Positions 929-1,990 of a stretch of 42,259 nucleotides of DNA are shown piece after piece. The stretch is from Candidatus Pacearchaeota archaeon. Its GTDB lineage: Archaea > Nanobdellota > Nanobdellia > Pacearchaeales > GW2011-AR1. The number at the start of each line of letters is the position of its first letter. The first letter of the stretch is position 1. The stretch is taken from the NCBI GenBank assembly GCA_016186365.1, contig JACPLT010000031.1, positions 1-42,259 of the forward strand, in the 5' to 3' direction. Below the pieces are notes generated by a model, which did no database searches, had not been told where the DNA came from, and saw nothing but the letters and a program-made list of their open reading frames with translations. The position numbers and the translations under genes were made by a program.

Positions 929-955
929 GCCCTTGTCGTCTAGAGGCCAAGGATA
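929..955 (+). pseudogene. tRNA 5' fragment (acceptor 5' strand plus D-arm), truncated before the anticodon stem
   Basis: GCCCTTGTCGTCTAGAGGCCAAGGATA; nearly identical to the D-arm of tRNA-Glu at 1869 but without the 35-nt intron; no anticodon or T-arm follows. Confidence 0.75.
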
Positions 956-986
956 AATTTTTATACACTTAATTCTATAATTATAA

Positions 987-1883
987 ATGAGAATTAAACT
1001 TAAAAAAGGAATACAAAGAAAATTAATAATTTTATCTAAAAAAAAGAATAATTTAACGTGGAAACAACTAGCAAGTAAATTATCTATGAGCGAGAGATAT
1101 TTAAGAATAGACTTGCTAAATGAAAATAGATTATTGGCGGAGAACATATACCATTTGCTATGTGAATTAGCGGGTTTTAATTGCGATGCTCAAATTTTAG
1201 AGAAACTAGAAGATAATTGGGGAAGAGCAAAGGGCGGAAAAAACTCGGTAAAAAAAGAAATATTGCTTACAACCATTGAATCAAAAGAACTTGCAGAACT
1301 TATTGGGATTATACTAGGAGACGGAAATATTTGGGCAGATAATCATTATTATTATCTCACAATTGTAGGAAATGAAAAAAAGGATAAAGATTATTTACTG
1401 AATTATGTAAAACCCCTAATAAAAAAAGTTTTCAATGAAGACATGAATATCCGCAGACATAAAACTCATAATGAGTTATTTTTATATAAAGGAAGCAAAA
1501 GTTTGGTATTCACATTAAAACACTTTGGATTAAAAGAAGGCAATAAGATAAAAAATAATGTAGGGATTCCTTCATGGATATTCAAAAATAAAAGTTATAT
1601 AAGAGCGTGTATTAGAGGATTAATAGATACTGATGGATGTGTTTGCCCTATTACTGGAAGAAATTATTCATATATATGGTTTTCTTCTAATATTTTAAAA
1701 TTAAGAACAGATTTTGACAAAGCAATGAAAATCCTGGGGATTAAAACCTCTTCATGGAATATTCGTAAAAATAGAACTCCTGAGATTTACATTGGAAATA
1801 AGAACATGCTCTTCAATTATATGAAAACAATAAGTTTTAAAAACAAACGAAATTTGAATAAATTTAAAGCCCCCGTAGTCTAG
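987..1883 (+). CDS. LAGLIDADG homing endonuclease (two-motif) with N-terminal HTH-like region
   Basis: LIGIILGDGNIW and IRGLIDTDGCV LAGLIDADG motifs; C-terminus APVV* overlaps the tRNA-Glu 5' end by 15 nt. Confidence 0.9.
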   Translation: MRIKLKKGIQRKLIILSKKKNNLTWKQLASKLSMSERYLRIDLLNENRLLAENIYHLLCELAGFNCDAQILEKLEDNWGRAKGGKNSVKKEILLTTIESKELAELIGIILGDGNIWADNHYYYLTIVGNEKKDKDYLLNYVKPLIKKVFNEDMNIRRHKTHNELFLYKGSKSLVFTLKHFGLKEGNKIKNNVGIPSWIFKNKSYIRACIRGLIDTDGCVCPITGRNYSYIWFSSNILKLRTDFDKAMKILGIKTSSWNIRKNRTPEIYIGNKNMLFNYMKTISFKNKRNLNKFKAPVV

Positions 1884-1990
1884 AGGCCAAATTCTAGATG
1901 CTGTAAAAAGTAAATAGAAGGCTATGGATAGGGCCCTTTCGCTCAATAAGGAGAAAGGCTCTGACCCGGGTTCGAATCCCGGCGGGGGCA
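1869..1990 (+). tRNA. tRNA-Glu(UUC) with two predicted introns (1891-1925 and 1942-1955)
   Basis: GCCCCCG/CGGGGGC acceptor, GTCT/GGAT D-stem, GGGCC/GGCTC anticodon stem with TTC anticodon, CCGGG-TTCGAAT-CCCGG T-arm; cloverleaf forms only after removing both insertions. Confidence 0.9.

Follow-up and report, generated by a model that had tools for sequence, protein, structure and literature searches.

An endonuclease gene that ends inside a two-intron tRNA-Glu gene: a probable tRNA-specific homing cassette in a Pacearchaeota genome

Known insertions at tRNA genes

An insertion in the tRNA-Thr(GGU) gene of Caldiarchaeum subterraneum appears, by layout, to be the closest precedent for the locus described here. 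In the type C clone studied by Sugahara et al. (2012; PMC3293823), a tRNA 5' fragment is followed by an insertion of about 1.8 kb and then by a complete tRNA; an uninserted allele exists in the same population, and the tRNA-Thr has an extra non-canonical intron. The insertion contains an 813-bp ORF, called a recombinase by SVMProt only, and a pNOB8-type integrase plasmid was proposed from composition (PMC3293823). Later reviews repeat either the pNOB8-type model or the idea that introns protect tRNA genes, and they do so without mention of homing endonucleases.

The DNA analysed here (the window) is a stretch of 42,259 nucleotides from a Candidatus Pacearchaeota archaeon (GCA_016186365.1, contig JACPLT010000031.1). 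Its locus at positions 929 to 1990 shares with the Caldiarchaeum insertion a tRNA 5' fragment, a single same-strand ORF beside the tRNA, and an added intron. Compared in this way, by layout, the Caldiarchaeum case differs in its insertion at positions 24-27, in the tRNA concerned, and in an extra 545-bp repeat region; moreover, its empty allele is known for its own locus, whereas that of the family treated here is known for a tRNA-Gln variant and not for the locus of the window. By this analogy, the enzyme of the Caldiarchaeum insertion may have gone unrecognised. Elements of the SSV and pNOB8 type are likewise aimed at a tRNA gene, restore it and leave a fragment behind, but SSV1 duplicates the tRNA 3' end (PMC3293823), whereas in the window it is the 5' half that is duplicated, and neither an integrase nor cargo is present.

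The structurally closest enzymes, I-DmoI and I-Tsp061I, are encoded by genes that reside inside rRNA introns. The window enzyme resembles them in its monomeric two-motif fold, and by analogy it would be expected to cut the uninserted allele of an essential RNA gene that has an intron in its occupied allele. In contrast to theirs, its gene is not placed within the intron: it stands between a stranded copy of an exon and a regenerated tRNA, has a promoter to itself and encodes an HTH-like domain at the N-terminus. The SegB-type free-standing homing endonuclease genes (HEGs) in the tRNA regions of T-even phages are also found near tRNA genes, but they belong to another nuclease family, regenerate no tRNA half and bring no bulge-helix-bulge (BHB) intron. 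The parts of the arrangement are known; the arrangement itself, its breadth and its tRNA specificity are new for homing elements, and no report of the HEG-tRNA layout was found among open-access journal papers.

The endonuclease gene, its tRNA-Glu and the stranded 5' half

The endonuclease gene occupies positions 987 to 1883 of the forward strand, on which all features of this locus lie, and encodes a protein of 298 amino acids that was characterised with Pfam, AlphaFold2 and Foldseek. Two LAGLIDADG motifs are present, LIGIILGDG (1299-1325) with the catalytic Asp112 and IRGLIDTDG (1611-1637) with the catalytic Asp216, and both aspartates are invariant across 13 full-length homologues (alignment A1). 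Pfam LAGLIDADG_3 matches residues 204-278 with an E-value of 6e-9 and is present in 13/13 homologues. A sequence search of the PDB gave no match, but a fold search did: the AlphaFold2 model (pLDDT 90.8) has as its best solved folds in Foldseek the archaeal intron-encoded enzymes I-Tsp061I (2dch, 3.6e-10) and I-DmoI (2e-8), and the list also includes LAGLIDADG maturases and WhiA. The motifs, the acidic residues and the predicted alpha-beta saddle fold are those of a two-motif monomeric LAGLIDADG homing endonuclease. It is not intron-encoded, since its gene (987-1883) lies outside the intron at 1891-1925, an arrangement also seen in its relatives. A profile search recovered more than 1000 relatives, which range over DPANN archaea, Asgard archaea and CPR bacteria. 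The N-terminal domain (residues 1-77) is helical, with no more than weak matches to HTH folds; ORFs or remnants of about 90-140 amino acids that match this domain alone were noticed at G035:C2:23020, G036:C5:14042, G008:C10:6429 and G047:C81:538. Three distant paralogues (26-30% identity) in the genome of the window (G000; contigs C24, C4 and C6) were set aside, as their layout is another one.

The last four codons and the stop of the endonuclease gene (GCC CCC GTA GTC TAG, APVV*; 1869-1883) are bases 1-15 of a tRNA-Glu(UUC), so that the TAG stop is supplied by tRNA bases 13-15, in agreement with the earlier note on this DNA. The tRNA (1869-1990) is intact, as that note had also proposed: it matches Rfam RF00005 with 40.2 bits, and RNA folding yields the cloverleaf together with both bulge-helix-bulge motifs at -53.7 kcal/mol (z = -4.84). 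Its first intron, 35 nt in the D-loop (1891-1925), is bounded by the helices GGCC/GGCT and TTCT/AGAA and sits exactly where the upstream fragment is uninterrupted; the second, a canonical anticodon-loop intron of 14 nt between positions 37 and 38 (1942-1955), is given by the tRNA model and the fold. After splicing, the tRNA would have a normal length of 73 nt and a D-loop of 9 nt, with the normal D-loop predicted to be restored. Among the tRNA matches of G000 (967 kb, 82% complete), there is no second Glu(UUC) gene. Elsewhere in the window, at 27551-27654 on the reverse strand, a tRNA-Ser(GGA) with an anticodon-loop intron was missed by ARAGORN.

The upstream fragment, which had been placed at 929-955, indeed runs uninterrupted across the intron position, but its secure extent is 929-950, from the acceptor 5' strand to the D-loop GGCCAA, because the GGATA at 951-955, although it corresponds to the post-intron exon of the tRNA-Glu, also runs into the TATA region of the endonuclease gene. 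Read directly, the relic at 929-950 is GCCCTTGTCGTCTAGAGGCCAA, followed by GGATAAATTTTTATAC and then by the ATG at 987. It is identical to tRNA-Glu positions 1-22 (1869-1890) at 19/22 nucleotides (p = 0.005; none of 200 dinucleotide-model shuffles scored as high). About 25 nt 5' of the relic, at a spacing like that of unlinked tRNAs, an AT-rich TATA-like stretch, TTTTTAAATAAATTT (898-912), is probably the original tRNA promoter. The TATA-like box of the endonuclease gene, TTTTTATA (958-965), lies 29 nt before the ATG, and the TATA-like sites of the homologues cluster at -29 to -31.

The acceptor sequence of the relic had suggested an origin from another isoacceptor, which is not needed: GCCCUUG pairs fully, with two G-U pairs, with the intact 3' strand CGGGGGC, as its former partner presumably would. 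The Glu(CUC) gene of G000 was rejected as a source, given that its acceptor reads GCTCCTG and not GCCCTTG. A 5' half that lacks its 3' half might also bring to mind a split or trans-spliced tRNA, a reading to which we give practically no credence and which was rejected: a complete tRNA-Glu is present at 1869-1990, the relic is followed by a TATA box and a gene and not by a linker complementary to the 3' half, and the acceptor parts of such relics decay in relatives.

For the endonuclease, TCTAGAGGCCAAGGATA had been put forward as the target. This sequence is uninterrupted in the relic itself (939-955), which also keeps GTCTAGAGGCCAAGGATA whole. With nothing more than this sequence as its site, the enzyme would cut its own element, and the site must therefore reach further 3' or depend on other bases. 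Immediately to the right of TCTAGAGGCCAAGGATA, the relic has AATTTT, whereas the tRNA has GGGCCC. Judged from these sequences, either the site may extend 3' into GGGCCC, or the GGATA of the relic may simply be promoter, as in relatives (CAATAAATTTATA). In the spliced tRNA-Glu(UUC) gene, GGCCAAGGATAGGGCCC is the centre of the candidate cleavage region.

Recurrence of the layout, D-loop introns and empty sites

The layout of the window was followed through 80 named homologues, 76 of which could be scored where the contig continues. A same-strand tRNA, defined as a complete tRNA that starts within -80/+50 nt of the gene's stop, is present in 63/76 of these loci, while a size-matched window upstream of the gene contains no tRNA start in the same set. 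The fragment, endonuclease gene and tRNA would have been found unlinked in relatives if the earlier note had been mistaken; the linkage is in fact the rule. In 60 tRNA-linked loci, the stop codon falls on tRNA bases 13-15 (offset -14) in 23 and on bases 8-10 (offset -9) in 14, so that 37/60 take their stop from one of these two triplets. A relic that ends at the D-loop GGYCAA, 36-39 nt before the ATG, was seen in about 20/54 loci; with stricter rules (at least 65% identity, end 28-50 nt before the ATG) there are 18/54, as compared with 1.1% in shuffles. Relic and downstream tRNA are identical over 24 nt at L066 and over 22 nt at L089. In many other loci the D-arm part is preserved, with the TATA box after it, but the acceptor part is eroded; the nearest homologue of the window gene (L064) is without a relic. 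These stranded relics at a fixed spacing bear out the description of the 5' fragment as an insertion scar. Because the layout recurs in 63/76 scorable loci and the spacing of the relics before the ATG exceeds chance, chance is excluded as the source of the window layout.

The idea that the endonuclease gene plus a whole tRNA replaced a resident tRNA holds literally at a single locus (L048), the only such case seen, where the gene and a whole tRNA-Gly(CCC) separate the two halves of another tRNA-Gly, the 5' one being GCGCTAG... and the 3' one ...CTGGCGCA; the acceptor strands of this divided tRNA remain able to pair. Most loci, the window included, are without a 3' tRNA relic. For this reason the window has most likely retained the resident 3' half, and its sequences speak for regeneration of the 5' half and not for whole-tRNA replacement.

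The coincidence of relic end, intron position and insertion point also allows a different history, in which the gene once resided inside a D-loop intron with the relic as exon 1, a later duplication of the 5' half ended the splicing of this 900-nt intron, and the 35-nt intron is what remains of it. Archaeal BHB introns with HEGs are known (PMC6125680), but among the homologues viewed the gene never lies within a tRNA intron, and in the 63 linked loci it is placed upstream of a complete tRNA. We consider this history, which is a variant of origin and not of the present anatomy, unlikely.

Some further loci of the family were noticed. The tRNA-Glu(UUC) that follows a close homologue at L065 (3900-3960) looks truncated past the anticodon arm and may be a broken tRNA or an assembly fault, and the HEG-linked tRNA-Gln at L100 seems to have a further insertion in its T-loop (after 3900). 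Among more distant homologues, those of three genomes (L051, L052 and L053) have a different layout, in which a tRNA encoded on the opposite strand and the gene for archaeal RNase P RNA are their neighbours, and family members of CPR bacteria (L137, L138, L141 and L143) lie beside tRNA-Ser-like class II tRNAs.

A full BHB (a 4-bp central helix plus a stem of at least 4 bp) can be formed by 29 of the 41 D-loop introns, versus 1.8% after shuffling, and the bases of the helix differ between introns in ways that preserve pairing (GGCC/GGCT, GGTC/GACT, GGTC/GACC, CGGT/ACCG). Within the order of the host, D-loop introns are found in 11/29 HEG-linked and 3/74 unlinked Glu/Gln tRNAs (P = 3.5e-5), a comparison that ignores shared descent and in which the unlinked set was in part fetched with an intron-less query, with split hits fetched on purpose. 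This enrichment agrees with the proposal of a homing-type insertion at the D-arm with an intron at the insertion point. The D-loop intron goes with the gene but is not required, because 18/29 HEG-linked Glu/Gln tRNAs in the order are without one; in these cases, blocking must work otherwise, or the enzyme may be inactive. D-loop BHB introns also occur in G000 in a tRNA-Gln(UUG) (C29:~192-311) and a tRNA-Val(GAC) (C24:~9000-9103), each without a neighbouring endonuclease gene; these orphan introns may be leftovers after gene loss, or they may have another origin.

Empty tRNA genes in related genomes, which the earlier note had led one to expect, were found in congeners at a tRNA-Gln locus and not at the locus of the window. 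The tRNA-Gln locus was used for the comparison because the gene downstream of the window's tRNA, which on the reverse strand (2096-3685) encodes a MutS-domain-V-like protein, has no match at 1e-40 in the 199 other genomes of the order. In the archaeal family of the host, tRNA-Gln(UUG) commonly lies between the genes for rpS15 and Bud32. The insert is present there in G213, G029 and G226, and it is absent from G210 and G211 (genus of G213), from G225 (genus of G029 and G226) and from about 15 further genomes. The common state of this locus is an intact tRNA without HEG and relic, and since presence and absence occur within single genera, the insert is the variable part, which comes and goes. 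Several Bud32-like genes, among them those of G013, G015, G034 and G133, match over one half alone, or in two segments that meet near residue 120, and have a longer open frame, possibly owing to inserts in the kinase gene; a Bud32-like protein of another genus (G050:C39:159-749) is 100% identical to that of G029, and its contig is probably misbinned.

Mapped onto the protein tree, the 7 amino acids of the linked tRNAs are explained by 7 changes (mean of shuffles 29.2, minimum 24), the 11 isoacceptors by 13 changes (40.6 in shuffles), and the 7 host phyla by 16 changes (28.2 in shuffles). The endonuclease tree follows tRNA identity better than host phylum. The window gene falls into a Glu(UUC) group together with genes from Pacearchaeota, Diapherotrites and Nanoarchaeota, with those of Woesearchaeota and Aenigmatarchaeota adjoining, and further groups correspond to Glu(CUC), Gln(UUG), Gln(CUG), Asp, Pro, Val and Gly, and to Ser in CPR bacteria. 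In this quick tree, 23/76 forks are weak, so its fine branching should not be read. A site-specific homing enzyme would be expected to stay with its tRNA while moving between hosts, as is the case here, and patchy, horizontally spreading presence at one site is observed in the tRNA-Gln locus and in the distribution of the tree across phyla.

The same data bear on two further explanations. An integrase or transposase element of the SSV/pNOB8 style could have duplicated the 5' half of the tRNA and carried the endonuclease as a passenger or last remnant; elements known to target tRNA genes leave a piece of the tRNA at one of their ends, and this reading was chosen for the Caldiarchaeum tRNA-Thr insertion. 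We regard it as quite improbable here, in view of the facts that the endonuclease is the sole ORF between relic and tRNA in the window and in the homologues viewed, with no integrase among them, that the junction is constant at the D-loop in many genomes, and that the endonuclease tree tracks tRNA identity. The fixed overlap of gene and tRNA and the N-terminal HTH-like domain might alternatively mark a stable, non-mobile pair in which the protein is a domesticated tRNA-linked factor, for instance a regulator or splicing helper; reuse of the fold is exemplified by LAGLIDADG maturases and WhiA. Such domestication seems very improbable for a protein family that keeps both catalytic acids, is patchy within genera at one locus, has spread across phyla and to CPR bacteria, and is missing beside the tRNA in most relatives.

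A proposed homing cycle and its meaning for archaeal tRNA genes

We suggest, with a probability of roughly 0.78, that the gene and its tRNA constitute a homing cassette, which would cut one particular isoacceptor gene in its D-loop, insert at that point and rebuild the tRNA 5' half, often together with a blocking intron. According to this proposal, the LAGLIDADG enzyme would cut the intact gene of one isoacceptor, tRNA-Glu(UUC) in the window, in its D-loop near GGYCAA/GG, and repair of the break would copy in the endonuclease gene with its own TATA box and a fresh 5' half of the same tRNA. The fresh half would be joined in register to the resident 3' half, and the resident 5' half is left stranded upstream as the relic seen in the layout. 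The rebuilt tRNA is functional in sequence and in about 40-50% of cases carries at the insertion point a BHB intron, which would be spliced from the RNA and, as its association with the gene suggests, may protect the DNA by interrupting the enzyme's site; cassettes without the intron presumably rely on changes in the D-arm. As the tree shows, the cassette spreads between species while remaining faithful to tRNA identity.

Such a rearrangement has consequences for expression, as the original tRNA promoter is now about 900 nt from the rebuilt tRNA. A TATA-like site at -45 to -18 is present in 49% of HEG-linked tRNAs, as compared with 78% of unlinked tRNAs and 18% of control positions within the gene, and in the HEG-linked tRNAs it often lies in the codons of a conserved C-terminal motif (AAA CAT TTA AAA). 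Since it is the tRNA that contains the stop codon of the gene, processing by RNase P would leave the mRNA without a stop; that this removal limits the enzyme is a hypothesis only.

These findings bear on two questions about archaeal tRNA genes: the origin of their non-canonical introns, and the possible role of introns in protecting them against mobile DNA (Randau and Soll). In the family described here, dozens of genomes combine a specific cutter with a specific place of insertion, an intron located exactly there and a stranded copy of the exon; empty sites are known as well, and the protection idea thereby becomes testable enzyme by enzyme. The family also suggests what the so far unexplained tRNA-Thr insertion of Caldiarchaeum may be, and it is predicted to offer about 10 natural specificities against tRNA D-arms. 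Tentatively, and with the odds somewhat against it, the proposal may be extended to the whole class of more than 1000 related proteins in DPANN archaea, Asgard archaea and CPR bacteria: these might capture essential tRNA genes by regenerating the 5' half, donate a protective BHB intron, and fuse their reading frame to the tRNA, with the conserved U8-A9-G10 or U13-A14-G15 serving as stop codon, C-terminal codons able to provide the TATA box of the tRNA, and RNase P cutting stripping the mRNA of its stop, so that one transcript would yield either enzyme or tRNA. If this were true, such cassettes would be one source of the non-canonical tRNA introns and of the stray tRNA 5' fragments of archaea.
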